A stretch of DNA of 64,000 nucleotides from Gammaproteobacteria bacterium (lineage in GTDB: Bacteria > Pseudomonadota > Gammaproteobacteria > Arenicellales > UBA868). Shown piece by piece: positions 14,559 to 41,729 of the stretch. Where the stretch lies: assembly GCA_022450155.1 (NCBI GenBank), contig JAKUQR010000003.1, positions 62,001 to 126,000 on the forward strand. The letters are read 5' to 3'. Numbering within the stretch: the stretch's first letter is position 1; each line of letters starts with the position of its first letter. Made by a program: the position numbers and the translations under genes. The notes under the pieces are model-generated. The model had not been told where the DNA came from, did not search any database, and saw only the letters and a list, made by a program, of their open reading frames with translations.

Positions 14559-14590
14559 CCCAGGTGGTTGTCGACTTCGATGGAGGGAGA

Positions 14591-18618: not shown

Positions 18619-19239
18619 TCAGGTCAGCCCGATCATGACGTTGTCCTTGAAGGCGGGTCGATCGGCCAGCTGCTGATACCAGCGATAAAGCGAAGGCAGT
18701 TCAGTGCGCTCGATATCAAGAGTAAACCAACGATAGACCATGATACCCAGCGGAATGTCGGCCATCGACAAGCTCTCACCTCCAACGAAAGCAGAGTCCG
18801 ACAGGTGATGGTCCAGTATGGTCATCACTTGCTCCAGCCGATCTCGGCCATCTCTGATGGCATCCAGATCCCGGTCTTTCGGTGCGGTTCTGATCAGACC
18901 CCAGAAGACCGGAAATACGGCAGGAGAGACTACAGTCTGCTGCCAGTCCATCCATTGTTCTGCCCGTGCAAGATCGGTCAACGAGTCCGGCAACAGCGAG
19001 TTTGGCGTAAATTTACGGACCAGGTAGCGGACGATAACATTGGATTCCCACAGTATCGTATCCCCATCGATCAGTGTGGGTACCAGCCCGTTTGGATTCA
19101 TAGACAGATAGGCCGTTTCCCGGTTACCACCAAATGGACCGCCGATGTCGTCTCGCGTGTATTCCAAGCCGAGTTCGCCCAGGGCCCATAGGGTTTTCTG
19201 GACATTGGATGAATTGTTGCGTCCCAGGATCTTCAGCAT
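18619..19239 (-). CDS. Glutathione S-transferase family protein
   Basis: About 206 residues from the ATG at 19239, chosen because AAGGAAA lies eight bases upstream and MLKILGRNNSSNVQK is the thioredoxin-fold N-terminus; an upstream in-frame start would add 16 odd residues. The N-terminal domain contains NGLVPTLIDGDTILWESNVI, which is the cis-Pro and glutathione-gamma-Glu site. The C-terminal helical domain has SMADIPLG, the conserved N-capping region. Related proteins conjugate glutathione to electrophiles or act as lyases. No partner is evident beside the MFS transporter gene upstream. Confidence 0.87.
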   Translation of the reverse strand: MLKILGRNNSSNVQKTLWALGELGLEYTRDDIGGPFGGNRETAYLSMNPNGLVPTLIDGDTILWESNVIVRYLVRKFTPNSLLPDSLTDLARAEQWMDWQQTVVSPAVFPVFWGLIRTAPKDRDLDAIRDGRDRLEQVMTILDHHLSDSAFVGGESLSMADIPLGIMVYRWFTLDIERTELPSLYRWYQQLADRPAFKDNVMIGLT

Positions 19240-19355
19240 GGTGGAGTTTCCTTTATCAGAGTTCGACCGGATCCTTAGATAGCTCAAGTCTACGGACCAT
19301 TACAGCAGATCGGATAGTAATTATAGCGGTGACGGCATCAATAGCCGCTCAACAC

Positions 19356-20570
19356 TCATCGACGCTGGTTCGATGGCAGCCAGTAGACGATCAGGTTTGC
19401 CAGTAGAATTGTTCCAGCCAAACAATAGAAAACCATGTGCAGGCCGTAGTGATCTGCAATTAGGCCACCCACAGGCATCATGATCATCGTCAGCAGAGCC
19501 TGCGTACCAAACAGGATACTGGTCGCGCTGCCTGCAATTTCACGTGGCACGAGATCCATCATCCAGCTGTGTATTACGGGCCGAACCGCAAACAGCGCAA
19601 ATCCCAGCAGAGAAACAGCCACCACAAGCACGATTTCATTCTGGGCGAGCGTAATCCCAGCGATGACGACCGTAGTCGTGGTGAGGCCGGCAAGTACGAC
19701 CGGCCGCCGACCGATCCGATCCGACCATGTTCCGGCAACTGGTGCTGCTACGAGACCGCCCAACTGTAATGCGCTCATGGTGATTCCCATCCAGAGCGGA
19801 CCTGATCCCAGTTCGTTGACGAGATAAAGCGGCAGGAAGACATACAGGCCATTCTGGGCGATGTTTCGCATACCCGACATGAGGCAGAGTCCAAGAACTG
19901 TTCGGTCGCGGGCGATCCCACCGATCTGTGTCAGGTAATGGCGCAAACCAGCCCGATCATGCTGAGTTGTCCGGCCAGATTTGTCGGTTTTAAGTAGACA
20001 CAAGGCGAACACCAGGGTGATCAGAAATACCGGTGCCGCACCAATTACCGCTGTGCCCTGCCAGGTCAGGACGAGCAACAGTACGCCGGCGGCAAGGGGT
20101 GCGAGTGTGTCTCCAAGGTTTGCACACAAGGCATGGACCGACAATGCATAGCCGCGATTGTCGGGATAATGGTCCGACAGAAATGCGATTGCCGGGGGAT
20201 GCCATAAATTGTTTGATGCACCCAGCAAAATGACCAGCACTGTCAGGACCAGAAACTCGCGGACCAGGCCAAAGGCCAACAGTGCGACACCACCCAAAAT
20301 CAGGGATACGACCTGGAACACGATCCGTCGGCCGGTGATGTCCACCATCAGCCCACTGCCAAAATTTGCGACCAGTGAACTTAAATGAAAAATCGAAACC
20401 AGGAGACCGGCGTCGGTATACGACAGGCCAATATCCTTGGCAATAAACGGCAGCAGAAGATAGAAAAAGGCAGCGATCCAATGGGTAGTACCGTGTCCCA
20501 GTCCAACCAGGAACGCCGGACCCTGTTTTGTCCAGGGAACACCCGTGAGCCGTCCTACAGATTCCAGCAC
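19356..20570 (-). CDS. MFS transporter (Fsr-like)
   Basis: A 404-residue major facilitator with about 12 membrane helices. VGLGHGTTHWI in the first helix and NLWHPPAIAFLSDHYPDNRGYA resemble the fosmidomycin-resistance (Fsr) branch. The loop signature DRIGRRPVVL sits between helices 8 and 9. The GTG start is preceded by AGGAG. The gene is divergent from the CoA-transferase gene across a 179-base region with a dyad. Substrate unknown; drug or small-acid export is the family norm. Confidence 0.85.
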   Translation of the reverse strand: MLESVGRLTGVPWTKQGPAFLVGLGHGTTHWIAAFFYLLLPFIAKDIGLSYTDAGLLVSIFHLSSLVANFGSGLMVDITGRRIVFQVVSLILGGVALLAFGLVREFLVLTVLVILLGASNNLWHPPAIAFLSDHYPDNRGYALSVHALCANLGDTLAPLAAGVLLLVLTWQGTAVIGAAPVFLITLVFALCLLKTDKSGRTTQHDRAGLRHYLTQIGGIARDRTVLGLCLMSGMRNIAQNGLYVFLPLYLVNELGSGPLWMGITMSALQLGGLVAAPVAGTWSDRIGRRPVVLAGLTTTTVVIAGITLAQNEIVLVVAVSLLGFALFAVRPVIHSWMMDLVPREIAGSATSILFGTQALLTMIMMPVGGLIADHYGLHMVFYCLAGTILLANLIVYWLPSNQRR

Positions 20571-20701: not shown

Positions 20702-20749
20702 CTGTAGCCCGGGCACTCTGTGAAAAACAGATCGGCCTGGGGGGGTAAT

Positions 20750-21943
20750 ATGACTAACAGACACCAACAGCTGCCACTTTCTCGGTTTACTGTGCTGGAT
20801 TTGACTCGGGTCAGGTCCGGACCCACCGCAGTACGGCAGCTTGCCGACTGGGGTGCAAACGTCATTAAGATCGAATCTCCGGCTCATATGAATGCTGAAG
20901 GGGGTATGGGTGGCGCGCGCCATGGACCGGATTTTCAGAATATTCATCGAAACAAGCGTAGTCTGACATTAAATCTGAAGCATGCCGAGGGCACGAATGT
21001 GCTGATGCGCATGGTTGATCAAGCCGATGTCGTGGTCGAGAATTTCCGGCCCGATGTTAAGCATCGACTGGGAATCGATTATGAATCGTTGGCCAAGCGC
21101 AATCCACGCATTATTCTGGCCAGTGTATCTGGGTTTGGACAATCCGGCCCTTATTCAAACAGACCTGGTTTTGATCAGGTGGCCCAGGGCATGGGTGGGC
21201 TGATGTCAATCACTGGGCTTCCCGGTCAGGGGCCCGTACGCGTGGGTGTGCCCATTGCTGATCTGACAGCGGGAATGTACGCCGCTATTGGTATACTTAT
21301 CGCGCTCCTTCAGCGCGAGGAAACTGGCAAGGGTCAGTGGGTCCACACTTCCCTGTTGGAGGCGCAAATCGCGATGCTGGATTTTCAGGCTGCACGTTGG
21401 CTGATCGGCGGCGAGGTGCCGCCTCAGGCGGGCAATAATCACCCCACCAGTACGCCCACGGGTGTTTTTGCAACAGCCGATGGTTATATCAATATTGCCA
21501 GTGCTGGTGAAACTATGTGGGAGCGTTTGTGTGGTGTATTGCAAGCTGATGACCTGTTTGATAATCCGAATTACGTAACCGAGCAGTCCAGGCATAAGCA
21601 CAGAGATGCACTGAATGAGGATCTTGCCGTCTATCTGCAGTATCGAACCAGCCAGGAATGGATTGACGCCTTGAACGATGCGGGCGTACCCAGTGGTCCA
21701 ATCTACGACATCGATGAAATGTTTGCAGACCCGCAGGTCGAACATGTTGGAGTGGCCAAGCCAGTCCAGCATCCACAACTGGGGGAGATCCGGGTTTTGA
21801 AGAATGCGATCAATCTCAGCAGCACACCGGATGTCGATTACCGACCAACCCCTGAACGCGGGGAACATACCGACACAGTATTAGCGGAATTCGGTTACAG
21901 CGCAGAGGAGATAGAACGGTTCAGGACTGCAGGTGTTGTTTGA
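20750..21943 (+). CDS. CaiB/BaiF family (class III) CoA-transferase
   Basis: About 397 residues from the ATG at 20750, which has a G-rich ribosome site just upstream; an in-frame ATG at 20720 is less likely. Family landmarks are LDLTRVRSGPTAVRQLADWG, VVVENFRPDVKHRLGIDY, the ASVSGFGQSGPY segment, and GFDQVAQGMGGLMSITG. The Asp that forms the acyl-anhydride intermediate is expected in the GFDQ region of this family. It moves CoA between acyl groups; the acid is unknown. It ends ten bases before the MaoC remnant on the opposite strand. A paralogue is at 32084-33316. Confidence 0.88.
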   Translation: MTNRHQQLPLSRFTVLDLTRVRSGPTAVRQLADWGANVIKIESPAHMNAEGGMGGARHGPDFQNIHRNKRSLTLNLKHAEGTNVLMRMVDQADVVVENFRPDVKHRLGIDYESLAKRNPRIILASVSGFGQSGPYSNRPGFDQVAQGMGGLMSITGLPGQGPVRVGVPIADLTAGMYAAIGILIALLQREETGKGQWVHTSLLEAQIAMLDFQAARWLIGGEVPPQAGNNHPTSTPTGVFATADGYINIASAGETMWERLCGVLQADDLFDNPNYVTEQSRHKHRDALNEDLAVYLQYRTSQEWIDALNDAGVPSGPIYDIDEMFADPQVEHVGVAKPVQHPQLGEIRVLKNAINLSSTPDVDYRPTPERGEHTDTVLAEFGYSAEEIERFRTAGVV

Positions 21944-21952
21944 TTTTGGAGA

Positions 21953-22168
21953 CTAGCCAACACGCTTTCTGATCAGGTAACGTTGGCTCCCTTCAAAGAT
22001 CAGAACATCGCTCTGGTTATGGATCGTAGCGCGCAGCGTGATGATGCCGGTTGTATTTTGTTCTTTGAGTTCAACGATCTCTAGCATGGGGTAGAGGGTG
22101 TTGCCTCGATAGACCGGATGCAGAAACCTGCCGCTCGCCTCGGTCATCCCTAACAGGGAATCAGCCAC
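21953..22168 (-). pseudogene. MaoC-like dehydratase remnant, C-terminal half
   Basis: A 71-residue frame matching the C-terminal strands of MaoC hot-dog dehydratases: FLHPVYRGNTLYPMLEI, then TTGIITLRATIHNQ and SQRYLIRK. The N-terminal half with the catalytic Asp/His motif is missing. Immediately upstream in frame there is a short continuation and then a TGA near 22210. Whole MaoC proteins have about 150 residues, so this is a truncated gene. It may once have hydrated the acyl-CoA made by the adjacent CoA-transferase. Confidence 0.6.
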
Positions 22169-22250
22169 CTGGCTGGGAAACGTACCGGCACCTCGGGTTC
22201 AATTTCCGGTTTTTGATTTGTGGAATAGTTGTTTATGGGGCTCCTGCTGG

Positions 22251-23117
22251 TCAGTTGGAACGGGCAATGATGACAATGGCCGGTACGATCAGCACGATGG
22301 CGATCACAATTCTCGAGGTGAAGCGCTCTTTGCGAAAAATAAAATAGCCAAGTAGAAAGCTGATGACAGGTGATACAGACACAACCGGTACCACAGTGAT
22401 GACTTGACCTATCTGGAGTGCCGTGTTCAGAGACCACAGCGAAATACCATTGATTATTCCTCCAATCAGGAACCAGGCCATGCCGGGTGACCACCGGACA
22501 GAGGGGATGATGCGTGCATGTTGGACTGATGCGACGATCAGGCCCACCAGAAGCGAGACACTGTAGCCGACAAGCCCGGCGAACAGCGGTTCCGGTACAA
22601 CATCTAAACCCAGTTTGGTCACTGCATGTGCAAGCGCGCGCAGGATGGCCGCCCCCAGTGGCAGCGACAGAGCCCACAGTGGCCACATCGACGTCGTGTT
22701 TCCACGATAGGTCAGGATTACAACGCCGGTTACGATGGCGAAGGTTCCACCCATCAGGGATGCCGTCATTGATTCTTCGAGCAGGGCAATCGCAAACAAT
22801 GCACTAAACAGTGGCGCTATAGAGGCGAGGGTGGTTGACAGAGTCGGGCCCAGAAACCGAATCCCGGCCATCGCAAAATTTGCAGAGAGAAAAGGACGAA
22901 ACAGTCCGATCGTGGCGAACAGCGCAGCCCCGGTTGTGAACCAGTACCACGTCTCAAGGAACCACGGCGACAGCATCCAATAGAGGGCGGCCGATGAACA
23001 AATAGAGATTAATGTGCCTCGTCGGCTGTCAATGTGTCTGAGACCCAGATTATGGAGTTGTACCGCAACGGCGAACAGAAAGGCCGAACACAGAGCGAGG
23101 GCGACTGGGGATGTCAC
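22251..23117 (-). CDS. EamA/DMT-family transporter
   Basis: A 288-residue integral membrane protein with about ten hydrophobic helices and two EamA repeats, the second beginning near LPLGAAILRALAHAVTK. It starts at a GTG. It ends the leftward operon with the FAD/Fe-S dehydrogenase and the TauD-like gene. Members export or import small metabolites such as amino acids. One of three DMT proteins in this window. Confidence 0.82.
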   Translation of the reverse strand: MTSPVALALCSAFLFAVAVQLHNLGLRHIDSRRGTLISICSSAALYWMLSPWFLETWYWFTTGAALFATIGLFRPFLSANFAMAGIRFLGPTLSTTLASIAPLFSALFAIALLEESMTASLMGGTFAIVTGVVILTYRGNTTSMWPLWALSLPLGAAILRALAHAVTKLGLDVVPEPLFAGLVGYSVSLLVGLIVASVQHARIIPSVRWSPGMAWFLIGGIINGISLWSLNTALQIGQVITVVPVVSVSPVISFLLGYFIFRKERFTSRIVIAIVLIVPAIVIIARSN

Positions 23118-23149
23118 ATTTTTTTGTAGGTGATTGACAGTTGTGGCGG

Positions 23150-24109
23150 TTAGCCGTCGTAACTTCGTTTGCCTGTGTCTCGATGCCAGGTTCTGTAAAA
23201 GTGTCGTTTTTGATCAGAATCAGTGTGATCCATAAAGTCGCTGCGGTAGTGTGCAATGTCAATGTTGTTCAGATAATGGAGGTCACCGGGATTCATTTGC
23301 GTCTCCACCCATACCGCTGGGTCGGCAAGAAGATCTTCCACAACAGCCAGCGCTTTTTCTAATGTCGAACTGATTTGTTCACCTGCAACGGCGTAGCCTT
23401 TTCTGATCAGTGAAATATTTGCACGACACAGAAGCCTTTTGCCATCCCACTGAAAGAATGGAGCCAGAGTGGTCTTTGCGGCCTGCGGATGATGTTCAGC
23501 CTGCCGATCATAAATTATCGGGCGGTAGAGTACGCCCAATACTTCCGGGTAGTCGCTGAGCAGGCGGTTGTGGAGGGCATACAGGCTACAGAACCGACTG
23601 ACACCACCGTGGAGTGCTGTTTGCCAGCACAACTGACCGACATAGTGGGGCACTGCTGTACCGAAAGCATTGTCGATATGGAAATTCAGTTCGGCCCGGG
23701 TGTGTGATCCGCGTACGCCATAATCGAATTCCGCGCCGGTGTCTGTCACGTCATAAATCATCGTGCCGTCGAACTTCTGAGCAACGGGCCGGCCAATGAA
23801 CTGGCCGAGTATCCAAAAAACACCGATCATGTCGGTTACTTCATAATCCTTGACGGCAAGTCCTTTGAGCACAGTAAATCCACAACCTTGATCGAGAATA
23901 AATCTTGCCTGTTGAATGATGTTTTGGAGGATCGGTAGGTGGTGATCCTTCGGGGCTTGGAGCAGTATGGGCAAAGGATTCCGCTGTAGTGCTTCAACGA
24001 GATCGTTGAGTTCTTTATTCACGTCATCGGACACAGTCAGGCACCAATCCTCGGCTTGTATGTCTTCCCCGATCCAGGTGCGGTGATCTGAAATGATGGT
24101 ATCCAGCAT
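23150..24109 (-). CDS. TauD/TfdA-like Fe(II)/2-oxoglutarate dioxygenase
   Basis: A 319-residue oxygenase. Iron ligands are His144 and Asp146 in LNFHIDNAF and His287 in NIDIAHYRSDF; Arg306 or Arg310 in FYRTWHRDT would bind 2-oxoglutarate. The family includes taurine, sulfonate, carnitine-precursor and clavaminate-type oxygenases; the LNFHIDNAF region does not match classical TauD closely, so I leave the substrate open. It starts 20 bases after the dehydrogenase gene, so they are co-transcribed. Neighbouring sulfur genes make a sulfonate or thio-acid plausible, as inference. Confidence 0.8.
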   Translation of the reverse strand: MLDTIISDHRTWIGEDIQAEDWCLTVSDDVNKELNDLVEALQRNPLPILLQAPKDHHLPILQNIIQQARFILDQGCGFTVLKGLAVKDYEVTDMIGVFWILGQFIGRPVAQKFDGTMIYDVTDTGAEFDYGVRGSHTRAELNFHIDNAFGTAVPHYVGQLCWQTALHGGVSRFCSLYALHNRLLSDYPEVLGVLYRPIIYDRQAEHHPQAAKTTLAPFFQWDGKRLLCRANISLIRKGYAVAGEQISSTLEKALAVVEDLLADPAVWVETQMNPGDLHYLNNIDIAHYRSDFMDHTDSDQKRHFYRTWHRDTGKRSYDG

Positions 24110-24129
24110 AGGTTGGTCAGTGCCCTGGT

Positions 24130-27093
24130 CTAGCTGTGGCCGGTTTCGCCGGTCCGGGTCGCTGCACTGTGAGCCATTGACTGGTACAGAAGTTGAACGA
24201 AGTGAACCGCATCACGGCCAGTACCGTCGTGAATTTGTTGCCGGCAGCTGGTACCACCGCCGACAACTACAGTGTTGGGGTCCAGTACCCGTACTGCAGG
24301 CAGCAGCGAAAGTTCTCCCATGGCCATGGACACGTCATAGTTTTTTGCCCATTGCCCAAAGTCACCTGCCATGCCACAGCAACTGCTGGCAATGGGGTTG
24401 ACCGTCAGTTCAGGTATCCAGTTCAGGACGGTTTCAACGTCATGGTCGGTGGCAAATGCTTTCTGGTGGCAATGGCAGTGTAATGCTGCCTGTTTGTATT
24501 GTGTGGGCTCAAGACGTATAGAAAGAACGTCCGATTGTTTAACCAGATACTCTTCGAGCAGAAAGGTCATGTCTGCGAGTCCCTTCGTTTCCGATGCCGG
24601 TAAAAGTACGTCGTATTCGTCTCTCAGGGTCAGAATGCAGGCCGGTTCCAGCCCGACCAGCGGTATCTTTTGTTCAATGAAGGGTTTCAGCGCCAGCAGG
24701 AGCCGTCGGGCTTCGTGTCTGGCTTCATCTATCAGGCCGGCTGCCAGAAACGTTCGTCCACAGCACAACGGTCTTTTGTCATCGGCCCCCGCGACGTGAA
24801 CGCGACAGCCGGCGGCAGCCAGAACATCGATCAACGCTTCACCATTTTCAGGTTCGAACCAGCGGCTGAAGGTATCCAGCAGGACAACGACTGCCTGACC
24901 ATCGGCGGGCCCAGCTTGAGTAATGCTGTTAAGGCGTTTCGACTTGCGCCAGCGGGGCAGGCGGCGATGGCGCGTGAAGCCTGTCAGCGACTCGATACAT
25001 AGGGCAGCACCGGGCAACTTCTGAACAGCGTTGAACAAAGGTCCAATGCCCCCAATCATCGGCGCGTATCGTGGTAGGTAGGCGACGAGACGTTGGCCCA
25101 TGTTGAGTCCGTGGGCGGCAGTTTGGCTCGCCTGTAATTCAAGTTTCATGCGCGCCATGTCGACACCTGTAGGACATTCTCGCTTGCAGGCCTTGCAGCC
25201 GACGCACAGCGACATCGATTCAGCCATTTCACTCGAGGTAAAAGCATTAGGCCCCAGCTGCCCTGTCAGCGCCAGGCGAAGCGTATTCGCGCGGCCTCGC
25301 GTCGAATGGGTTTCGTCGCCTGTTGCGCGAAATGAAGGACACATCACCGCGGCGTCCTGTTTACGGCAGGCGCCATTGTTGTTGCACATTTCAACTGCAC
25401 CGGAAAACCCTCCCCAGGTTGACCAGTCCAATTGTGTTGATCTTTTGCCGTCTAGATATTCCGGTCCGTAGCGAAACAAAGAACGATCATCCATGCGCGG
25501 TGGATCAACGATTTTGCCTGGATTAAAAAGACCATCTGGGTCAATTATTTGTTTTACTTGTTCGAAAATATTCAGCATTCGATCGCCAAACATGATTGGG
25601 TGGAATTCTGAACGAACGATGCCATCGCCGTGTTCACCGGAGTGCGAACCTTCATATTCCCTCACGATGGAAAAGGCCTGCTCAGCAATAGAACGCATCT
25701 TCCGAACATCTTCAGGACTTTTCATATTCAGTACGGGACGCACATGAAGACAGCCTTCTGAAGCGTGCGCATACCAGGTGCCACGTGTTCCATGATCTTC
25801 AAAAATTCGGGTCAGCCGATCGGTGAACTCTGCCAGGTGTTCAAGCGGCACCGCACAATCCTCAATAAACGACACCGGTTTGCGGTCACCTTTCATCGAC
25901 ATCATGATGTTGAGGCCCGATTTTCGAACCTCCCAAACCGACTGCTGGTCTGCCGGGTTGACGATGTCCACGACAGACCCTGGATGGCCCAGGTCAGCCA
26001 TAAGCGTCGATAGGTCGCCCAGCTGTTGCTGCAGTTTGGTGGGTTCCTCTCCTGCGAACTCAACCAGCAGCAGCGCGTCAGGATCGCCATTTACAAAGCG
26101 GGTCAGCGTTTTACTGAACATGGGGATATCCAGCGCCAGTTCTATCAGGGTCCTGTCGATCAGTTCGACCGCGTCTGGACCCAGACCCACGATGTGTTGC
26201 GTTGATTCCATCGCCTGGTAAAACGAAGGGAAATGACAGATTCCTAGAACTTTGTAGGCAGGTATGGGTTGTAAGCGCAGTGTCAGTTGGCGTGTAAATG
26301 CAAGTGTGCCTTCTGAACCAACCAGCAATTGGGCCATATTTTGCTCACGCTGTTGTAACGCTGGTGGCAGCATGGCATCAATGTTGTAACCACCGACCCG
26401 GCGATGCACTTTGGGAAACCGTGTTGTGATCTCAGTGGACTCACGATCGGCAAGCTCGATCAGTGATTGCGTCAGTCGACGATAAATCTCGGGTTCATGT
26501 AGATCAGTATTCGCGGGTCCAATTGGGCCAAACTGTGCCTGTTCGCCACTGGCGAGTACTGCATCGATGGTCAGTACGTTATCCCGCATCAGCCCATAGC
26601 GTATTGATCGGGCGCCACAGCTGTTGTTTCCCGCCATGCCTCCCAGTGTGGCCTGACTGGCTGTTGATACGTCGACCGGGAAAAACAAGCCATGGGGTTT
26701 CAACTGCGCATTGAGTTGATCTAGAACTATGCCTGGTTCGACGGTAACAGTCCGTTCGGCTGTGTCCAGTTCGACAATTTGGTTTAAGTGTTTTGATACG
26801 TCAATCACTAATGCCAACCCTACGGTTTGGCCGCTTTGTGATGTGCCGGCACCACGAGGAAGCACCGGTATACCTTCCTCCGAAGCGATGTCGATGATGG
26901 TCGTTAGATCGTCCTGTGCCTGTGGGATGACAACGCCAATCGGTTCGATCTGGTAGATTGATGCATCTGTGCTGTACCGTCCGCGGCTGAAGTGATCGAA
27001 CAATACCTCACCCTTGATAGACCTCGACAGTTTCTGCGCGAGCCTGCTATCGCCGATTCGCGCCTTAAGTGGAGAATTGTCGTAGTGACTCAT
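24130..27093 (-). CDS. FAD-binding and Fe-S D-2-hydroxyacid dehydrogenase (YdiJ/Dld-type fusion)
   Basis: About 987 residues, starting at the ATG at 27093 (a GTG at 27102 is the alternative). The FAD_binding_4 domain holds PRGAGTSQSGQTVG (about 78-91) and GNNSCGARSIRYG. Next come the FAD-oxidase C domain, a GACRKQDAAVMCP segment, and an Fe-S site near residue 635, CVGCKACKRECP. The C-terminal region has CCG-type motifs (CCGRTF and SSCCGMAGDFG). This order matches E. coli YdiJ, reported to oxidise D-2-hydroxyglutarate, and related D-lactate dehydrogenases. It leads the leftward operon. Whether the substrate is a simple hydroxyacid or a sulfonated one is unknown. Confidence 0.88.
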   Translation of the reverse strand: MSHYDNSPLKARIGDSRLAQKLSRSIKGEVLFDHFSRGRYSTDASIYQIEPIGVVIPQAQDDLTTIIDIASEEGIPVLPRGAGTSQSGQTVGLALVIDVSKHLNQIVELDTAERTVTVEPGIVLDQLNAQLKPHGLFFPVDVSTASQATLGGMAGNNSCGARSIRYGLMRDNVLTIDAVLASGEQAQFGPIGPANTDLHEPEIYRRLTQSLIELADRESTEITTRFPKVHRRVGGYNIDAMLPPALQQREQNMAQLLVGSEGTLAFTRQLTLRLQPIPAYKVLGICHFPSFYQAMESTQHIVGLGPDAVELIDRTLIELALDIPMFSKTLTRFVNGDPDALLLVEFAGEEPTKLQQQLGDLSTLMADLGHPGSVVDIVNPADQQSVWEVRKSGLNIMMSMKGDRKPVSFIEDCAVPLEHLAEFTDRLTRIFEDHGTRGTWYAHASEGCLHVRPVLNMKSPEDVRKMRSIAEQAFSIVREYEGSHSGEHGDGIVRSEFHPIMFGDRMLNIFEQVKQIIDPDGLFNPGKIVDPPRMDDRSLFRYGPEYLDGKRSTQLDWSTWGGFSGAVEMCNNNGACRKQDAAVMCPSFRATGDETHSTRGRANTLRLALTGQLGPNAFTSSEMAESMSLCVGCKACKRECPTGVDMARMKLELQASQTAAHGLNMGQRLVAYLPRYAPMIGGIGPLFNAVQKLPGAALCIESLTGFTRHRRLPRWRKSKRLNSITQAGPADGQAVVVLLDTFSRWFEPENGEALIDVLAAAGCRVHVAGADDKRPLCCGRTFLAAGLIDEARHEARRLLLALKPFIEQKIPLVGLEPACILTLRDEYDVLLPASETKGLADMTFLLEEYLVKQSDVLSIRLEPTQYKQAALHCHCHQKAFATDHDVETVLNWIPELTVNPIASSCCGMAGDFGQWAKNYDVSMAMGELSLLPAVRVLDPNTVVVGGGTSCRQQIHDGTGRDAVHFVQLLYQSMAHSAATRTGETGHS

Positions 27094-27197
27094 ACTGTGC
27101 ACAATAGTCGTTCGTTGGATGGTCGATTAACATGGTGTCGGTACGGATGTCCGATCGACACGGCATCTGCTGGCAGTGTAGTGTAGAACGAGAGATT

Positions 27198-28376
27198 ATG
27201 ACTGGAAACCGAAGCGGACGACATTTTCTACAGATTCCTGGACCGACCAATGTCCCGGAACGCGTACTGCGGGTTATTCAGCAGCCCACGATCGATCACC
27301 GTGGCCCACGTTTCCAGCAGCTGGTGCGTGATATTCTTGATCGCCTGCAGCTGATATTCAGAACAGACAGTCCGATTATTATTTTTCCATCGTCGGGTAC
27401 CGGTGCCTGGGAAGCCGCGCTGGTGAATACACTGTCGGCCGGGGATAAAGTACTGATGTATGAGACCGGACATTTCGCTTCGTTGTGGTACACGCTGGCT
27501 GAGCGATTGGGACTCGATCCTCAACTGATCGCAGGGAATTGGCGTACCGGTATAGACGCAGACGCCATCCAACGCATACTTGAGGAGGACAGCGGGCACA
27601 ACATCAAAGCTGTCTGTGTTGTGCACAATGAAACATCGACTGGTGTCACCTCCGATATTCAGGCGGTGCGGCACGCGATAGATTCGGCCGGGCACGCGGC
27701 GCTGCTGATGGTGGATACCATCTCCTCCCTGGCTTCGATCGATTACCGACACGATGAGTGGGGCGTCGATGTCACCGTTGCCGGTTCCCAGAAAGGTCTA
27801 ATGTTGCCGCCAGGGCTTGGTTTTAATGCCGTTAGCGAGAAGGCATTGTCTGTGACAGAAAAGGCAACTCTGCCACGATCATACTGGAGTTGGATGGAGG
27901 TCTTGGCGGCTAATCAGACTGGTTTTTTCCCGTATACCCCAGCGACCAACCTGCTCATGGGGCTACAGGAAGCAGTCGATATGTTGTTGGGAGAAGGGCT
28001 CGAGAACGTATTTTCTCGGCATATGAGATTCGGTGAGGCCACACGGCGTGCCGTACAGGCTTGGGGGCTGGAGCTGCTGTGTCTGAACCCGCTGGAATAC
28101 AGCAATTCTTTGACTGCAGTAATGATGCCTGAAACAATCAATGCGGATGATTTCCGGCGGGTAGTGCTGGAACGATTTGATATGTCGCTGGGCAACGGGC
28201 TGGGACAGCTTGCCGGTAACGTATTTCGAATTGGCCATCTCGGTGATTTTAATGATCTGATGCTGATGGCTACTTTGGCTGGCATCGAGATCACTTTGGA
28301 TGTAGCTGCCGTGCCTCACAAAAAGGGCGGTGTGCAGGCAGCAGTAGACTATATTGCAGCTCAGGTTCAGGGATAA
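27198..28376 (+). CDS. Class V aminotransferase (serine/alanine-glyoxylate type)
   Basis: 392 residues from the ATG at 27198, preceded by GAACGAGAG; an in-frame start at 27132 would add 22 non-family residues. The N-terminus FLQIPGPTNVPERVL is typical of serine-glyoxylate and alanine-glyoxylate aminotransferases. The PLP Lys is in AGSQKGLMLPPG. DTISSLASIDYRHDEWGVD precedes it. It leads the rightward operon, divergent from the YdiJ-like gene over about 100 bases. The amino donor could be serine, cysteate or a cysteine-derived compound; the sequence does not decide. Confidence 0.87.
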   Translation: MTGNRSGRHFLQIPGPTNVPERVLRVIQQPTIDHRGPRFQQLVRDILDRLQLIFRTDSPIIIFPSSGTGAWEAALVNTLSAGDKVLMYETGHFASLWYTLAERLGLDPQLIAGNWRTGIDADAIQRILEEDSGHNIKAVCVVHNETSTGVTSDIQAVRHAIDSAGHAALLMVDTISSLASIDYRHDEWGVDVTVAGSQKGLMLPPGLGFNAVSEKALSVTEKATLPRSYWSWMEVLAANQTGFFPYTPATNLLMGLQEAVDMLLGEGLENVFSRHMRFGEATRRAVQAWGLELLCLNPLEYSNSLTAVMMPETINADDFRRVVLERFDMSLGNGLGQLAGNVFRIGHLGDFNDLMLMATLAGIEITLDVAAVPHKKGGVQAAVDYIAAQVQG

Positions 28377-28423
28377 ATGTTAGCTGTTTGACGGTTGCTT
28401 AATTGAGAACGGGGGATGAAAGC

Positions 28424-29017
28424 ATGACCATCATCGAACAACGAGACCAGGCTGTAACCGAGACAGTGGGTCGGGTGCGTTTAATAGAACAGCAGCACGG
28501 GGTTAATTACGATGCGCTGGGCAAGATTCGGGATGAGCTTATCGATCTTACTCGGAATAAAGAAATGTTTCCCCGAAGTAGTTTTCCTATAACTGAGGAT
28601 GGTGGATCTGCGGTCTACCGAATTTCTGAAGATTCAGATCATCGTTATGCACTCTATGCATCTGTCGGTGCCGTGGGCAAATCAGTGCCGCCCCACAACC
28701 ACACGACCTGGGCCGTCATCGTGGGCGTCTATGGAGATGAACTGAACCGGTTCTATCAGCGAACTGATGATGCATCTACAGAGGGTTATGCGGAACTGGA
28801 AGAAACAGGGAGTTCTGTGGTTCACCACGGCAATGGCGTTGTTTTTCTACCGGACGATATTCATGCAATCTCTACTGATGATTCAGAACCCACAGTGCAT
28901 CTGCATATGTATGGACTCGCCTTGGATTACCTTCATGAAAGACTAGTATTTGATCAAGCAGGGAAAACGGTAAAAACCATGTCTATCCGAACCGATATCC
29001 AGACGCCGGTCGCTTGA
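28424..29017 (+). CDS. Cysteine dioxygenase-family cupin
   Basis: About 197 residues from the ATG at 28424, preceded by GGGGGAT; an upstream in-frame ATG adds seven residues. The three-His iron site of thiol dioxygenases is visible as His91 and His93 in PPHNHTTW and His148 in DDIHAIS. Such enzymes turn cysteine into cysteine sulfinate, or 3-mercaptopropionate into its sulfinate. Which one cannot be told here. Its position between an aminotransferase and a rhodanese gene supports a cysteine-sulfinate-like route ending in sulfite or sulfane sulfur. Confidence 0.8.
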   Translation: MTIIEQRDQAVTETVGRVRLIEQQHGVNYDALGKIRDELIDLTRNKEMFPRSSFPITEDGGSAVYRISEDSDHRYALYASVGAVGKSVPPHNHTTWAVIVGVYGDELNRFYQRTDDASTEGYAELEETGSSVVHHGNGVVFLPDDIHAISTDDSEPTVHLHMYGLALDYLHERLVFDQAGKTVKTMSIRTDIQTPVA

Positions 29018-29122
29018 CTGATTTGATCGTCGATATTCGTGTGTTCAACTCAACGCACGACTGGATCTGATTGGTCTGGGCCGGATCAATGACACGACTA
29101 TTGCATTATAGGAGTTGTTGAG

Positions 29123-30721
29123 ATGAGTTTTGTATCACCGAGTCAACTGAAAGAGCAGATTATCGAAGGTAAAGAGCTCGCCGTAGTGGATGTCAGAAGT
29201 GGGGGCGCTTTTGCCGGCGCCCACCTGCTTTACGCGATCTCGATTCCTTTGGCAAACCTTGAACTGGAGTTCCGGCATCTGATTCCTCGATTAGAAACAC
29301 CAATTGTGCTTTGTGACGATGCCAGTGGGCTGGTAGATATTGCCGTGGTACGTCTTACCGAATTCGGCTATACACAGGTGAATATTCTGGATGGTGGGAT
29401 AGAGGCATGGGAGAAAGGCGGTTACGAGATCTTCTCAGGTGTAAACGTACCCAGTAAGGCTTTTGGAGAATTTGTTGAACATAAATACGGCACGCCTCGC
29501 CTACCAGCCGAGGAGATAAAAGCCAAACTCGATGCCGGTGAAAATATTGTCATTCTGGATAGTCGGCCAATGAAAGAATTCACCAGCATGAGTATTCCGG
29601 GTGGGATTTGTTGTCCTGGTGCAGAGCTTGCTTACCGGATCAGCGATGCAGTCGATGATCCACAGACGCTTGTTGTGGTCAATTGTGCGGGTAGAACGCG
29701 CAGTATTATTGGGGCACAGTCACTGATTAATGCCGGTATACCGAATCCAGTTGTGGCACTGGAAAACGGTACCATGGGATGGCATCTGGCAGGTTATGGG
29801 TTAGACCATGGTCAGGTTCGACGCGCGCCAAACGTAACAAAAAATGGGCTCGAGCGTTCACGGAAGATGGCCGATACGGTGGCCAAGCGGTTTGGCGTTG
29901 AAAAGGTATCGAGTGCTGACCTGGAAAGATTTCGTACGCAAACAAGTGAGATTACCCTGTTTGTTCTGGATGTGCGTTCGCCAGAAGAATATATAGCTGG
30001 CCATCTTCCGGGTTCTCGATCAGCCCCCGGGGGGCAGCTGGTTCAGGCTACAGATGAGTATGTTGGTGTTCGACATGCCCGTCTGATACTGGTAGACGAT
30101 ACTGGTGTTCGTGCGACCATGACCGCATCCTGGCTGATTCAGATGGGGTGGGACAACGTCTATGTGCTGGACGGTGGGCTGACGCAATCTGGTCTTGAAG
30201 TAGGACCAGAACAAAGAGAAGTTTTGGGTCTAGGGAACCTGGATGTTCAGCTTGTTGAGGCTTCTGTGCTCAACGAATTAATCACGCAAGAAAACGCTGT
30301 CGTGATTGATTTGGCAGACAGCCTCGAATTCAGAGCAGGACATATACCCGGTGCTGTGCGGGCTTCACGCTCTGGGCTGGAAAATGTGTTAGGAAAACTG
30401 GCTGGCGATGACGTGACGGCTATACTGACATCAGCTGACGGTGTCCTGGCCAAGTTTGCTGCCGCTGAGGAGTCTCACAGAGACGACCTCACAGTGTATG
30501 TTTTGGACGGCGGTATTGATGCGTGGACAGCTGCGGGTTATGCCCTGGAATCGGGAGACGATCCGGCTGCGGGTGAACTGTCGGAGGACGTCTGGTATAG
30601 ACCTTATGAGCAGACCGATGCCATCGAAGAAGCGATGCATGCCTACCTGACCTGGGAAGTGGCTCTGGTTGAACAGATTGAGCGTGACGGTACAACACGT
30701 TTTCGTCGTTTTGACCCCTGA
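29123..30721 (+). CDS. Four-domain rhodanese-like sulfurtransferase
   Basis: A 532-residue cytoplasmic protein built of four rhodanese repeats, roughly residues 1-105, 120-230, 262-365 and 378-478, followed by a 50-residue tail. Only the second has a canonical active loop, CAGRTRS at 188-194. The first has Cys64 without the basic residues. The third has Asp325 where Cys is expected, and the fourth has Thr/Ser, so these are probably structural or regulatory. Rhodaneses move sulfane sulfur to cyanide, sulfite or thiols. Paired with the thiol dioxygenase it may handle sulfite or thiosulfate. It abuts the amidase gene with a TGATG overlap. Confidence 0.87.
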   Translation: MSFVSPSQLKEQIIEGKELAVVDVRSGGAFAGAHLLYAISIPLANLELEFRHLIPRLETPIVLCDDASGLVDIAVVRLTEFGYTQVNILDGGIEAWEKGGYEIFSGVNVPSKAFGEFVEHKYGTPRLPAEEIKAKLDAGENIVILDSRPMKEFTSMSIPGGICCPGAELAYRISDAVDDPQTLVVVNCAGRTRSIIGAQSLINAGIPNPVVALENGTMGWHLAGYGLDHGQVRRAPNVTKNGLERSRKMADTVAKRFGVEKVSSADLERFRTQTSEITLFVLDVRSPEEYIAGHLPGSRSAPGGQLVQATDEYVGVRHARLILVDDTGVRATMTASWLIQMGWDNVYVLDGGLTQSGLEVGPEQREVLGLGNLDVQLVEASVLNELITQENAVVIDLADSLEFRAGHIPGAVRASRSGLENVLGKLAGDDVTAILTSADGVLAKFAAAEESHRDDLTVYVLDGGIDAWTAAGYALESGDDPAAGELSEDVWYRPYEQTDAIEEAMHAYLTWEVALVEQIERDGTTRFRRFDP

Positions 30722-32067
30722 TGGATCTTCACAAACTCGGTACAGTTGAAATTCTCAGTGGGCTGCGGATCCGCAGCTTTTCGGTTGTTGAACTCGTACA
30801 GACTCTGTTGGAGCGCATCAGTGCACTCGATTATCTGCAGGCGTGGGTCTGTGTTGATCCTGAAGGCGTGGTAGAGCAGGCTCGTCAGAAACAGGCCGAA
30901 CTTGATGCAGGATCCAGTGCGCCGCTGATCGGTGTCCCGACCGGGGTTAAGGATATTTTCTACACCGCCGGTGTACCGACCACCGCTTGTTCCAAGGTTT
31001 ATGCGGATTTTGTTCCCAAGCACGATGCGACGACAGTGGCGCGTCTTCAGCAAGCAGGCGGGATTATGCTCGGCAAGACAGTCACCACCGAGTTTGCCTA
31101 TCGGGATCCGTCCCCAACCCGCAATCCCTGGAACACCGACCATACGCCTGGCGGTTCGAGCAGTGGCTCGGCCGCCGCAGTTGCGGCGATGATGTGCCCG
31201 ACCGCATTTGGCAGTCAGACCCGCGGTTCCGTGCTTAGGCCCGCTTCCTATAACGGTATCGTGGGCCTGAAACCGACTTTCGGGCGGGTGAGTCGATTCG
31301 GCGTCGTTCCCTTGAGTTGGTCTTTTGATCACGTCGGCTGGATGGCCAGGTCAGTTGAAGATGTGGCCCTGATGCTTCAGGTCATGGCCGGTCCGGACAA
31401 AAACGATCCAACCACTGTGCAGGACGAAGTACCGGATTACTGCGTGGGGTTGAAGAATCCGGATCCACCCCACGTGGGGGTACTGGAAGACTACTTTCTC
31501 GAAAATGCGGATGACGATGTACGTGCTCACACCCAGGAAGTCGTCGAACGTCTGGCGCGCGATGGCGCCAGAATCGAACATCTCGCACTGCCAGAAAGTT
31601 TTGAACGCGCGATGGCGGATCAACTGACCATCCTGACAGTGGAAGCTGCCAACTTTCATGAACCGCTGCTCAAAGAAAAGGCTGATCTTTATGGGCCCAA
31701 CATCCGGGAACTGGTAGAAACGGGTCTGGGTATCGATGCAGTGACCTATTCCCGGGCGTTGGAAAGCCGCCTTCAGTTAATTGCCGATGCCGAGGCATTG
31801 GCGAAGAAGGCACAGGTGCTGTTGACGCCGACCACACCAACGCCGGCACCAGGTGACCTTAGCGTGACTGGCAGTGCGATGTTTCAGGGCCCATGGACTT
31901 CTACTGGACTGCCTACCGTGACCGTTCCTTCGGGGCTTTCTCAATCCGGCCTACCGCTGGGAATACAGCTTATAGCGGCCAGACTGGAAGAGCCCAGATT
32001 GCTGAGTGCTGCCAGATGGTGTGAGCAGGTGCTTGGCAGGATGCCAGCGCCACCTCTGCAGATTTAG
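30721..32067 (+). CDS. Amidase-signature family hydrolase
   Basis: A 448-residue amidase of the Ser-cisSer-Lys class. The catalytic Lys is in GVPTGVKDIF near residue 80, and the signature GGSSSGSAAAVAAMM, with both Ser residues, is near 145-160. The start overlaps the rhodanese stop by one base, so the two are coupled. Related enzymes hydrolyse allophanate, aryl amides or N-acyl amines. In this operon it could release an amine or thiol-bearing amino acid from an amide, feeding the dioxygenase and aminotransferase. That role is inference. Confidence 0.85.
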   Translation: MDLHKLGTVEILSGLRIRSFSVVELVQTLLERISALDYLQAWVCVDPEGVVEQARQKQAELDAGSSAPLIGVPTGVKDIFYTAGVPTTACSKVYADFVPKHDATTVARLQQAGGIMLGKTVTTEFAYRDPSPTRNPWNTDHTPGGSSSGSAAAVAAMMCPTAFGSQTRGSVLRPASYNGIVGLKPTFGRVSRFGVVPLSWSFDHVGWMARSVEDVALMLQVMAGPDKNDPTTVQDEVPDYCVGLKNPDPPHVGVLEDYFLENADDDVRAHTQEVVERLARDGARIEHLALPESFERAMADQLTILTVEAANFHEPLLKEKADLYGPNIRELVETGLGIDAVTYSRALESRLQLIADAEALAKKAQVLLTPTTPTPAPGDLSVTGSAMFQGPWTSTGLPTVTVPSGLSQSGLPLGIQLIAARLEEPRLLSAARWCEQVLGRMPAPPLQI

Positions 32068-32083: not shown

Positions 32084-33316
32084 TCAGGGCTTTTCAGGCG
32101 GCTGTTCATTGGCGACGGTGACCCCGCTTTGGATCAATGTGCTGATTTCCTCATCAGTGTAGCCGACGTCGTGCAATATAGACCGAGTGTGTTCAGCGTA
32201 ACGCGAGGCCGGTTGTTTGGGCCCGCCGGGTGTCTGTGAGAATTTAACCGGCAAACCCAGCGTTCTGACCGGACCGGCGTCAGGATGGGACTGTGTGAGC
32301 ACCATCTCACGAGCCAGCGCTTGTGGGTCATCATGCATTTGTAAAATTGTGTTGATCGGACCTGCGGGTACACCCGCTTGCTCCAACAGATCCAGCCAGG
32401 CCTCGGTGGTTTTTGCGGACAACTTGTCGTTGAGATGCCGCTCCAGCAGCGTAAGATTTTCCATGCGTGCTTCGTTTGTACAGAAACGCGGGTCCTCAAG
32501 CATGTCGGGGTCGATAAGTTCCGCAAACCGTTTCCAGGTGGGCCCGTTGGCAGCCCCGACCGTTATCCATCCGTCTTCAGTCTGCAGTGCCTGATAGGGA
32601 GCGTTCAGCGGGTGTCCAGACCCCAGTGGTTCAGGCGCTCGGCCTGTTGCGAATGCAATCGCCGAATGCCAGTAAGTCTGGACAATACCTGCTTCGAACA
32701 GCGAAGTGTCCACCATTTGTCCTTCACCCGTGACTTCGCGGTGTCGAAGGGCGGCACAGATACCCATTGCGAGAAGAATGCCGGCGGTGATATCGGTCAG
32801 GGGTACGCCTGGCTTGACGGGACTTCTCCCTGGCCCCTCACCCGTGACACTCATGATGCCAGACATTCCCTGGGCGATGAGATCGAAACCGGCACGTTCC
32901 TTGTATGGGCCAGTTCGTCCAAATCCACTGATGGCGCCGTAGATGATTTGAGGGTTGAACTGACAAATTGTTTTGTAACCCAGGCCCAGTCGTTCGAGCA
33001 CACCGGGGCGAAAATTTTCCAGGATCACATCGGCATCCAGCAGCACTTTTTTTGCGACTTCAATGCCTTGTGGCGACTTCAGATTGAGGGGTAATGTTCG
33101 TTTGTTGCGATTCAAGATCATATAGGTGGCTGATACGCCGTTGATGGAATAGGGGTCGCTGGCGTTGCGTGCCTCGTCCGCTTCGAACGGCGCCCGTTCA
33201 ATCTTGATCACCTCAGCACCCATGTCAGCGAGCATCAACGCGCAGGTCGGGCCGGCCATCGCGTGGGTAAAATCAACGACACGAATGCCATTAAGAGGTC
33301 CATACCCTGTTTTCAT
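32084..33316 (-). CDS. CaiB/BaiF family (class III) CoA-transferase
   Basis: About 410 residues from the ATG at 33316, preceded by GGAGAGAAC; an upstream in-frame start at 33364 adds 16 residues of low likelihood. Landmarks are VDFTHAMAGPTCALMLADMG, VILENFRPGVLERLGLGY, AISGFGRTGPY and GFDLIAQGMSGIMSVTG. It lies downstream of a DMT transporter gene on the same strand, 44 bases away, as does its paralogue's neighbour region at 20-23 kb in a different arrangement. The acid substrate is unknown. It converges on the amidase gene. Confidence 0.88.
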   Translation of the reverse strand: MKTGYGPLNGIRVVDFTHAMAGPTCALMLADMGAEVIKIERAPFEADEARNASDPYSINGVSATYMILNRNKRTLPLNLKSPQGIEVAKKVLLDADVILENFRPGVLERLGLGYKTICQFNPQIIYGAISGFGRTGPYKERAGFDLIAQGMSGIMSVTGEGPGRSPVKPGVPLTDITAGILLAMGICAALRHREVTGEGQMVDTSLFEAGIVQTYWHSAIAFATGRAPEPLGSGHPLNAPYQALQTEDGWITVGAANGPTWKRFAELIDPDMLEDPRFCTNEARMENLTLLERHLNDKLSAKTTEAWLDLLEQAGVPAGPINTILQMHDDPQALAREMVLTQSHPDAGPVRTLGLPVKFSQTPGGPKQPASRYAEHTRSILHDVGYTDEEISTLIQSGVTVANEQPPEKP

Positions 33317-33360
33317 CAGTTCTCTCCGTGGATAACAACAAATCAATCGAATTGTCGGAC

Positions 33361-34281
33361 TCAATAGGTCTTTTCAAGGACCAGCACAACGATGCCGACG
33401 ATAAGCAACACGACGCCTACAATTTCCTTGCGACTGACTTTTTCTCGAAAAATAAGAACAGACGCAAGAAATGTAAACAGCAGTTCTATCTGGCCGAGTG
33501 CACGCACAAAAGCCGCGTTGGTTAGCGTAAAGGCGATGAACCAACAGATTGAGGCAATCCATCCAGCAAAACCAACAGTAGCGCAATGGCGCCAGTTGAT
33601 AAACGTGCGTGTAATCTGGCCGGGTTCCCGGTAGTACAACCAGGCGGACATCACGATACTCTGAAACACAGTTGCAATTGCGAGGGTATAGGCTGATTTT
33701 GCCAGTATCGAATCACCCTCCAGCGACAACAACGCACCCCGAAACAGTACGGCTGACAATCCGAGGAAGAATCCGCAGGCAAGCCCTATCATGGTAGATT
33801 TCTGGCGCAGTCCGGAAACCAGGCTCGCGACCGAGAGTTTAGATTTGCCGGCAGTCATGATCAGTACCCCGGCGGTTGCGACTACAACGGCGGAGGTGGC
33901 CAAACCAGATATCATTTCATGCAGAACAATAGCTTCGAGAACGACGACCTGTACGACTTCTGTTTTGGACAGTGCCGTGCCCACGGTAAAGTTGGAAAAT
34001 GAGAAAAGCCACATCAGCAAAAACGTGAAAGTAATCTGTGCAATGGATCCAGCGATAATCCAGGTCACGAACGTCGAACTCGGTGTCGGCAGGTCTAATC
34101 CAAATCCGAGCGTTAAAAGCGCAAGCCAGACCAGAGCAAAAGGGCAGGCGTAAAGGAAACGCACATAAGCCGCGCCCATGTCCGAGAGTTTCGATTTAAG
34201 GTGGCGTTGGACGGCCGAACGGACATTCTGGAAAAATGCGGCCGCGATCGTGACTGGAATCCAGAGTATTGTCACAGTCAT
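33361..34281 (-). CDS. EamA/DMT-family transporter
   Basis: A 306-residue inner-membrane protein with about ten helices in two EamA repeats (first near MGAAYVRFLYACPFA, second near AGWIASICWFIAF). It is cotranscribed with the following CoA-transferase gene. The second half ends with an EKVSRKEIVGVVLL segment typical of the family. Substrate unknown. The 121 bases upstream, before the reductase gene, hold nothing I can name. Confidence 0.82.
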   Translation of the reverse strand: MTVTILWIPVTIAAAFFQNVRSAVQRHLKSKLSDMGAAYVRFLYACPFALVWLALLTLGFGLDLPTPSSTFVTWIIAGSIAQITFTFLLMWLFSFSNFTVGTALSKTEVVQVVVLEAIVLHEMISGLATSAVVVATAGVLIMTAGKSKLSVASLVSGLRQKSTMIGLACGFFLGLSAVLFRGALLSLEGDSILAKSAYTLAIATVFQSIVMSAWLYYREPGQITRTFINWRHCATVGFAGWIASICWFIAFTLTNAAFVRALGQIELLFTFLASVLIFREKVSRKEIVGVVLLIVGIVVLVLEKTY

Positions 34282-34402: not shown

Positions 34403-35356
34403 TCAGTGCGTCCGGCTGACTTCGAATCCCGCGGACTCGGGTTCGTCATCAATAATCTCTTCGGGAAAGCCCGGGGCAAGCAGTTTTTCACTACAGGCCT
34501 CTTCGAGTCGACGGACAATATTTGGTGACCATTCACGCGGACCATAGCGGTTCTGACCATCTTTGAAAATATCGAGCAGTAGAGGAGCAAGTTCTAGCGG
34601 TACGTTGGTTCGATCCGCAACGGCTTGAAACAGACTCATGTCCTTAACAACCAGGTCGAGTGTGAAATTTATATTTCGACTGCCATTGAGTATCACCTGG
34701 CTTTCGGTTTCGTGTACAAAGGAATTACCCGATGAGATTCGGATTGCGTCGTAGCTCGTACTCAGGTCGAGACCCGAACACTTTGCGGTCATCAAGGCTT
34801 CTCCCAGCGCAACAAGGTTTACGGATGCCAGGTAGTTTGTGATTACTTTGAGTAGGGATGCAGATCCCAGAGGGCCGGTGTGCAGGATCTGCCGTCCCAT
34901 CGCGCTGATGACAGGTAGGGCGCGGTCAAAAGTATCTCGATCGGTGCCGACGAAGATCGAGATATTTCCGGTCGCGGCGCGATGACATCCTCCAGAGACC
35001 GGGCAATCGATCGCTTCACCGCCGGCAGCCAGAACCTGCTTACCCAGGCGTTTCACTTCATGCTCGTCGGTGGTGCTCATTTCAGCCCAGATCTTGCCGT
35101 CCGCCATTTCGGACAGAATACCGTCTTGGTCTTCCATGACTGCAGCGCTTGCACTGGGGTTCGGCAGACAGGTGATTACCATGTCAGTTTGTCTGGTCAT
35201 CTCTGCAGGAGACTCAGCCCACTGCGCTCCTCGATCAATAAAGGGCGTCGCCACCTGTTGGTCAAGGTCTCTGACCATCAGATCGAAACCGTTGCGCTGC
35301 AAACTGCCGGCAAGTTTTCCACCGACGTTGCCAAGGCCAATAAATCCGATTCGCAT
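34403..35356 (-). CDS. NAD(P)-dependent oxidoreductase, 3-hydroxyisobutyrate dehydrogenase family
   Basis: About 317 residues from the ATG at 35356, with GGAGAAC upstream; a longer in-frame extension to 35503 has no family character. The Rossmann motif GFIGLGNVGGKLA is N-terminal, the substrate loop CPVSGGCHRAATGNI is canonical, and the catalytic Lys is in ASLLKVITNY. Family members include sulfolactaldehyde reductase and 3-hydroxyisobutyrate dehydrogenase. It is divergent from the sauS-like gene across 253 bases. A role with a sulfonated aldehyde is attractive but inferred from neighbourhood only. Confidence 0.85.
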   Translation of the reverse strand: MRIGFIGLGNVGGKLAGSLQRNGFDLMVRDLDQQVATPFIDRGAQWAESPAEMTRQTDMVITCLPNPSASAAVMEDQDGILSEMADGKIWAEMSTTDEHEVKRLGKQVLAAGGEAIDCPVSGGCHRAATGNISIFVGTDRDTFDRALPVISAMGRQILHTGPLGSASLLKVITNYLASVNLVALGEALMTAKCSGLDLSTSYDAIRISSGNSFVHETESQVILNGSRNINFTLDLVVKDMSLFQAVADRTNVPLELAPLLLDIFKDGQNRYGPREWSPNIVRRLEEACSEKLLAPGFPEEIIDDEPESAGFEVSRTH

Positions 35357-35455
35357 CTTGTTCTCCAGTGCTGGTGGACTCTTGTGTGGTGACATCAGGT
35401 GGAGCATATGATGGGTTCGAAGGGCGACAATGGCAAGCTGAACACCAGACCCTGC

Positions 35456-35481
35456 CATACTCCTGAACAAAGGGGAGTATG
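35456..35481. promoter_or_regulatory. Inverted repeat between reductase and sauS-like genes, possible operator
   Basis: CATACTCC at 35456-35463 and GGAGTATG at 35474-35481 form a perfect 8+8 dyad with a ten-base centre. It sits in the divergent intergenic region about 100 bases before the reductase start and 130 before the sauS-like start. No T-run follows, so an operator is likelier than a terminator. Confidence 0.4.
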
Positions 35482-41697: not shown

Positions 41698-41729
41698 GAT
41701 TGACCCTGTGGACTCTAAAGATTTAGTGT

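Follow-up and report, generated by a model that had tools for sequence, protein, structure and literature searches.

Do the six enzymes encoded on either side of a short divergent promoter region in an uncultured gammaproteobacterium belong to a single pathway, and on what class of substrate would they act? The question is raised by positions 22251–32067 of a 64,000-nucleotide stretch of contig JAKUQR010000003.1 (the window, i.e. the whole stretch analysed), taken from a draft genome of 3.2 Mb in 77 contigs. Here a TauD-like oxygenase, a YdiJ-like flavoprotein, a class V aminotransferase, a thiol dioxygenase (cupin), a four-domain rhodanese and an amidase are encoded together. The view of the locus as one six-gene operon is not borne out: it consists of two separately conserved, phylum-wide pairs that are joined in two genera, and is not one ancient operon. 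All of the enzyme families are known, whereas the dioxygenase clade is uncharacterised and the gene combination is undescribed (no description was found in the open literature, a search that left most subscription papers outside its reach). At slightly less than an even chance, we read the locus as a catabolic island put together from two modules, acting on a sulfur-substituted C4–C5 dicarboxylate or its amide, from which sulfite would be released.

Two conserved gene pairs meet at the locus

The first pair is formed by the fused FAD and 4Fe-4S D-2-hydroxyacid dehydrogenase of YdiJ type (24130–27102, minus strand; PF01565, PF02913 and Fer4_8) and the class V aminotransferase (27132–28376, plus strand). 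A search of 100 relatives gave aminotransferase matches in 16 of 30 genera, and the YdiJ-like gene was divergent from and adjacent to the aminotransferase in all 20 loci read within the order. Other families of the order carry this pair together with an enoyl-CoA hydratase (ECH) and a CoA-transferase, often accompanied by TRAP transporter genes. Across the Pseudomonadota, the aminotransferase occurs in 50 of the 213 genera sampled, with the YdiJ-like gene within 1.5 kb of it in 18 of 29 loci.

The second pair is formed by the cupin (28403–29017, plus strand) and the rhodanese (29123–30721, plus strand; four PF00581 domains). In named genomes 80 loci were compared, and the cupin gene is immediately followed by that of the rhodanese in 72 of them; in two of the eight exceptions (L105 and L123) the cupin lies close to the end of its contig. 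The cupin–rhodanese and aminotransferase pairs are on different contigs in a further genus (g6) of this family.

The full set occurs only in the window's own genus (genomes G002 and G003), and G007, from another genus of the same family, has the block without TauD. In these three genomes the cupin, rhodanese and amidase are placed between the aminotransferase and a CoA-transferase gene (coat2), at the position where other families carry the TRAP genes and the hydratase. The conserved block extends from a GST-like gene to an acyl-CoA synthetase gene; its continuity in G002 and G003 is inferred, since in both the assembly is interrupted within ydiJ and the block falls on separate contigs. Thus the interval first singled out is real, although the conserved block reaches from ∼18.6 to ∼38.6 kb and is about twice as long. 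The expectation that gene order would extend beyond close relatives holds for each of the two pairs, whereas it fails for the complete set, which is found in no genome beyond them.

The dioxygenase belongs to a sister group of mercaptosuccinate dioxygenase

Among the locus proteins, the cupin alone went unmatched in both Pfam and NCBIfam at 1e-3, and for this protein and five relatives no Pfam match of the cysteine dioxygenase (CDO) type was found up to an E-value of 1. A profile built from 12 relatives and compared with the PDB retrieved mercaptosuccinate dioxygenase (MSDO; 8vni) at E = 7e-48 and the best 3-mercaptopropionate dioxygenase (MDO) at 9e-9; entries named CDO scored 9e-9 or weaker, the best of these being actually an MDO. 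The predicted model (pLDDT 91) likewise has 8vni as its best fold match (TM 0.86, 38% identity), whereas identity to CDO and MDO folds is only 14–20% in the same comparison. In an alignment of 83 sequences the iron ligands His98, His100 and His154 are invariant, as is the His168/Tyr170 pair. In the tree, the cupin falls in a clade of 72 rows with support 100/98, separate from the clade of 8vni (100/100). On these likenesses of sequence and predicted fold, the cupin is assigned to an uncharacterised sister group of MSDO and not to CDO or MDO.

Arg66 of MSDO is the predicted substrate-binding arginine (PMC8503633). The columns of MSDO Arg66 and Leu68 hold Val71 and Arg73 in the window cupin, and MSDO Gln64 corresponds to Ser69. 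An arginine at 71 and an arginine at 73 are mutually exclusive (R71 in 10, R73 in 70 and neither in 3 of the 83 sequences), proportions that are biased, the sequences having been collected for their likeness to the window cupin. As judged from strand geometry, residues 71 and 73 would lie on the same strand face. These substitutions bear on an alternative, namely that the locus degrades mercaptosuccinate itself by the route of Variovorax paradoxus B4, with the thiol converted to sulfinosuccinate and then to succinate and sulfite. In its favour, MSDO is the closest solved relative, and the enzymes of V. paradoxus B4 and Advenella mimigardefordensis DPN7 share with the window cupin 38% of their sequence, the fold, the three histidines, the His–Tyr pair and a rhodanese neighbour; the msdo clusters of both organisms include a rhodanese gene, and the MSDO product loses sulfite (PMC5373536). 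However, the arginine and glutamine are replaced and Arg73 is gained, and the cupin lies outside the MSDO clade; we regard this route as very improbable. The locus also has an aminotransferase and an amidase in place of the adjoining cystathionine lyase or LysR gene of the msdo clusters.

Two variations among the relatives were also seen. One locus (L075, 9243–10549) has two tandem cupins ahead of the rhodanese, one with Arg73 and the other with Ala by alignment. Distant relatives (33–35%) in L045 (3762–4361) and L046 (10160–10795) are followed directly by a 769-residue gene, with branched-chain-type ABC transporter genes beside them and no rhodanese.

The rhodanese that accompanies the cupin retains a single candidate catalytic residue: in the family alignment the one active-site cysteine kept in every sequence is Cys188 (domain 2, loop NCAGRTRS), and at the corresponding position of domains 3 and 4 cysteine is missing. 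Related four-domain rhodaneses on several plasmids sit with MDO-type dioxygenases and sulfonate genes. These plasmid relatives were discarded as a clue to the substrate, the adjoining cupin being MDO-like by alignment in three of the plasmids read. Thiol dioxygenases appear to have the four-domain rhodanese as a general partner.

The flavoprotein and aminotransferase resemble enzymes of dicarboxylate metabolism

The flavoprotein shares with E. coli YdiJ, a D-2-hydroxyglutarate dehydrogenase, its fused FAD-oxidase and iron–sulfur architecture of ∼990 residues. It differs in having an aminotransferase neighbour and in its score of 552.5 bits against the YdiJ model NF049975, far under the cut-off of 1350. 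The E. coli enzyme accepts D-2-hydroxyglutarate alone, but D-malate is also oxidised by some other D-2-hydroxyglutarate dehydrogenases (PMC9504171). Against the GlcD model TIGR00387 the flavoprotein reached 226 bits, with a cut-off of 567.9. Glycolate metabolism was rejected as its main role, since a closer GlcD (536.6 bits, just under the cut-off) is present on another contig of the genome together with a GlcE-like match.

The best named family of the aminotransferase is BhcA (NF045640), the aspartate–glyoxylate aminotransferase of the beta-hydroxyaspartate cycle, at 464.8 bits, below the cut-off of 650. It also matches the serine–glyoxylate aminotransferase (SGAT) structure 6pk1 at E = 3e-107, with which it has the FRIGHLG region in common. 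No second BhcA-like gene was found in the genome at E 1e-70. The beta-hydroxyaspartate cycle was set aside with the aminotransferase below the BhcA cut-off; BhcB, BhcC and BhcD were not searched for.

This relationship to the aspartate–glyoxylate and serine–glyoxylate enzymes is what lends interest to a pathway for cysteine or cysteine sulfinate. The cupin would then yield cysteine sulfinate, an analogue of aspartate, and the aminotransferase would transfer its amino group to glyoxylate, giving 3-sulfinopyruvate and from it pyruvate and sulfite, the latter handled by the rhodanese. Such a route agrees with the gene order aminotransferase–cupin–rhodanese, and the dioxygenase clade does have a conserved arginine of its own (R73). 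The cupin, however, is far from CDO and has no arginine in the column of MSDO Arg66, the aminotransferase usually has no thiol dioxygenase beside it, and neither the CoA-transferases nor LeuCD and LeuB, which accompany the pairs in other genomes, would have a role; cysteine catabolism is quite unlikely. Cysteine and mercaptopropionate, put forward in the earlier note as candidate substrates, are made less likely by the MSDO-like placement of the cupin. The order of steps proposed there, in which the amidase frees an aminothiol that is oxidised by the cupin and then transaminated, has no direct support.

Mosaic clusters link the pairs in distant genomes

Linkage of the locus genes with others in distant genomes was borne out by clusters of mosaic composition. 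In genome G004 the row runs aminotransferase–ydiJ–tauD–eamA–LeuC–LeuD–MFS–LeuB–ECH–CoA-transferase (coat1)–MFS–GST, and in G008 and G014 the amidase, tauD, eamA and LeuB are found together. Two metagenome-assembled genomes of the Rhodospirillales (L066 and L067) have CoA-transferase–cupin–rhodanese–LeuB–aminotransferase–RraA–ECH–MFS–CoA-transferase–GST, where RraA denotes an RraA-type aldolase, and L067 has an acyl-CoA dehydrogenase-like gene in addition. A further locus (L064) reads LeuC–LeuD–cupin–rhodanese–LeuB. Between these clusters LeuB is 54–60%, LeuC 54% and MFS 46–63% identical, and LeuC, LeuB, ECH, MFS and GST overall are 45–67% identical. It is mainly through this transitive linkage that the genes are treated as one pathway, for which the mosaic gene orders are suggestive and not proof.

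The same data must be weighed against the possibility that the two modules are neighbours by chance, the cupin–rhodanese pair serving detoxification or sulfur supply in general and sharing no pathway with the unrelated hydroxyacid module next to it. Each pair is conserved alone, the contexts of the sulfur pair are highly variable across the 80 loci, and its rhodanese recurs on plasmids in the company of MDO-type dioxygenases and sulfonate genes. Moreover, the aminotransferase lies near the cupin in just 4 of the 80 loci, from two lineages, which limits the mosaic argument. Chance would not, however, be expected to keep the amidase, coat2, eamA2, sauS and acs in an unchanged order in two genera at 64–74% identity, nor to leave LeuB, LeuC, ECH, MFS and CoA-transferase in common among independent mosaic clusters, and we consider chance neighbourhood unlikely.

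A candidate pathway for a sulfur-substituted dicarboxylate

Gene content, family placement, metal ligands, conservation of the pairs, mosaic linkage and the separate dioxygenase clade were established directly, and we infer the chemistry, the order of steps and the class of substrate. A dicarboxylate theme runs through the families (MSDO-like, YdiJ-like, BhcA-like, SUGCT-like, LeuCD/LeuB-like and malonamidase-like), and as most of these act on C4–C5 dicarboxylates, the most parsimonious assumption for the substrate class is a sulfur-substituted dicarboxylate or the amide of one. In such a catabolic island, a first module (the YdiJ-like flavoprotein, the class V aminotransferase and the CoA-transferases) would interconvert a D-2-hydroxy acid, a 2-oxo acid and an amino acid, and would feed a CoA-ester route. 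In a second module, the non-haem iron dioxygenase would oxidise a thiol to a sulfinate, which may lose sulfite as sulfinosuccinate does in the MSDO precedent, and the rhodanese, with its one conserved catalytic cysteine, would bind or transfer sulfane sulfur or sulfite. The amidase may release the substrate from an amide or an N-acyl derivative, and a modified version of the substrate may be opened by the TauD-like enzyme.

The two accessory enzymes were placed by family. The amidase-signature hydrolase (30721–32067, plus strand; PF01425) is GatA/malonamidase-like and matches malonamidase 1ock/1obj at ∼190 bits, and it is 71–89% identical in G002, G003 and G007. The TauD/TfdA-family Fe(II)/2-oxoglutarate dioxygenase (23150–24109, minus strand) belongs to its superfamily by a PF02668 score of 81.7 bits (gathering score 27), the HID motif and the distal histidine. 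Its sole NCBIfam hits, to TmpA and gamma-butyrobetaine dioxygenase, were weak, and none was to an equivalog model of taurine dioxygenase (TauD in the strict sense); the closest solved structures are FrbJ and 7n7v. The gene adjoins ydiJ in G002, G003 and G004, and is absent from that place in G007.

Several observations weigh against a common pathway of this kind. In most genomes the YdiJ-like/aminotransferase pair has no sulfur genes beside it, which implies a sulfur-independent role for the first module there. The complete arrangement is confined to two genera of one family, one of them lacking TauD, and the aminotransferase of the two Rhodospirillales clusters, at only 45% identity, may come from a different subgroup. 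Finally, a dicarboxylate theme at the level of families fixes no substrate, and the amidase and TauD families are broad.

More specifically, the substrate-anchoring arginine of the dioxygenase clade may have moved two residues along the strand, in the service of an undescribed marine thio-dicarboxylate desulfurisation via LeuCD/LeuB-, CoA- and aminotransferase-type steps, a combined proposal that we hold to be somewhat unlikely. If true, it would provide a testable sister clade of MSDO with a mapped candidate specificity switch (R66/L68 versus hydrophobic/R73), show that the four-domain rhodanese works generally with thiol dioxygenases of several types, and add a thio-dicarboxylate pathway to uncultured marine bacteria, in a setting for which little is understood of where dissolved organic sulfur comes from and what becomes of it.

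Gene calls and the shared intergenic region

ORF calling recovered every gene of the earlier note at its given position, as two divergent operons ∼104 bp apart, and searches with Pfam and NCBIfam models agreed with its family assignments, the cupin being placed by PDB profile search and fold comparison. All six families listed are present, although an EamA-type transporter gene of the left operon (22251–23117, minus strand; PF00892) had been omitted despite lying inside the interval; it is adjacent in G002, G003, G007, G004, G008 and G014. The gene run is kept at 64–93% protein identity in other genomes and is thus not an ORF artefact. Homologue N-termini point to ATG 27198 as the likely start of the aminotransferase and ATG 27093 as that of the flavoprotein. 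With the starts chosen in this way, the shared divergent promoter region (27094–27197, no strand) measures 104 bp, in line with the ∼100 bases first claimed. A promoter scan detected no sigma-70-like site in this region, and the scan overall gave fewer sites than shuffled sequences.

Flanking genes and organosulfur setting

At the left edge of the conserved block lies a GST-like gene (18619–19287, minus strand; Pfam GST_N/GST_C), kept in G007, G004 and the Rhodospirillales loci L066 and L067. It was rejected as a phylum-wide marker of the cluster, the family being common elsewhere without the other cluster genes. It is followed by an MFS transporter (19356–20570, minus strand; 50% identical to that of L067 and 63% to that of G004) and by coat1, a SUGCT-like family III CoA-transferase (20720–21943, plus strand; NF052585 at 313 bits, below the cut-off of 750) that is 76% identical in G004. 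A truncated MaoC-like gene of 79 residues (21956–22192, minus strand; 87% identical) stands where G002, G003 and G007 hold a 159-residue version.

To the right of the amidase, coat2 (32084–33364, minus strand) encodes a family III CoA-transferase of the succinate-HMG/glutarate type (9br7, E = 2e-81); its identity to the CoA-transferase that accompanies the aminotransferase pair across the order is 53–57%. Beyond it lie a second EamA transporter gene (eamA2; 33361–34281, minus strand) and a gene for a 3-hydroxyisobutyrate dehydrogenase family protein, assigned by family models (34403–35503, minus strand), both conserved in G002, G003 and G007. The acylating sulfoacetaldehyde dehydrogenase SauS (35610–37004, plus strand; NF047625 at 717.6 bits, above the cut-off of 600) follows 3.5 kb downstream of the locus, and an AMP-forming acyl-CoA synthetase gene (36994–38559, plus strand) is kept behind sauS in G002 and G007. 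The two overlapping genes (35610–38559) form a possible pair for activation and reduction of sulfoacetate.

On the same contig, 8.2 kb upstream of the window, sulfoacetaldehyde acetyltransferase (Xsc) scored 930.9 bits with a cut-off of 676.4. Xsc, alanine dehydrogenase and an AptA-like omega-aminotransferase are encoded side by side there (C3:42001-62000, L187, positions 10005–14356), a set known from taurine dissimilation. These enzymes of taurine and sulfoacetate dissimilation are a set separate from the six-gene locus, and no link to the six genes was seen. Together with SauS they support the use of organosulfur by the organism, not a link to the locus. The organosulfur context of the earlier note is nevertheless upheld by the MSDO-type thiol dioxygenase, the rhodanese, SauS and Xsc.

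Elsewhere in the window, a protein of the BesD/HalD Fe(II)/2-oxoglutarate family (16984–17769, minus strand) has HFD where halogenases have HxG, which makes a hydroxylase more likely. The aerobic benzoyl-CoA pathway is represented at 40246–46393 by BoxB, BoxC and benzoate-CoA ligase, and the same run includes a gene resembling D-amino acid dehydrogenase. An oligopeptide-type ABC transporter operon, followed by genes for a 2-hydroxyacid dehydrogenase and a type II haloacid dehalogenase (7756–15307), adjoins the cluster in G002 too.

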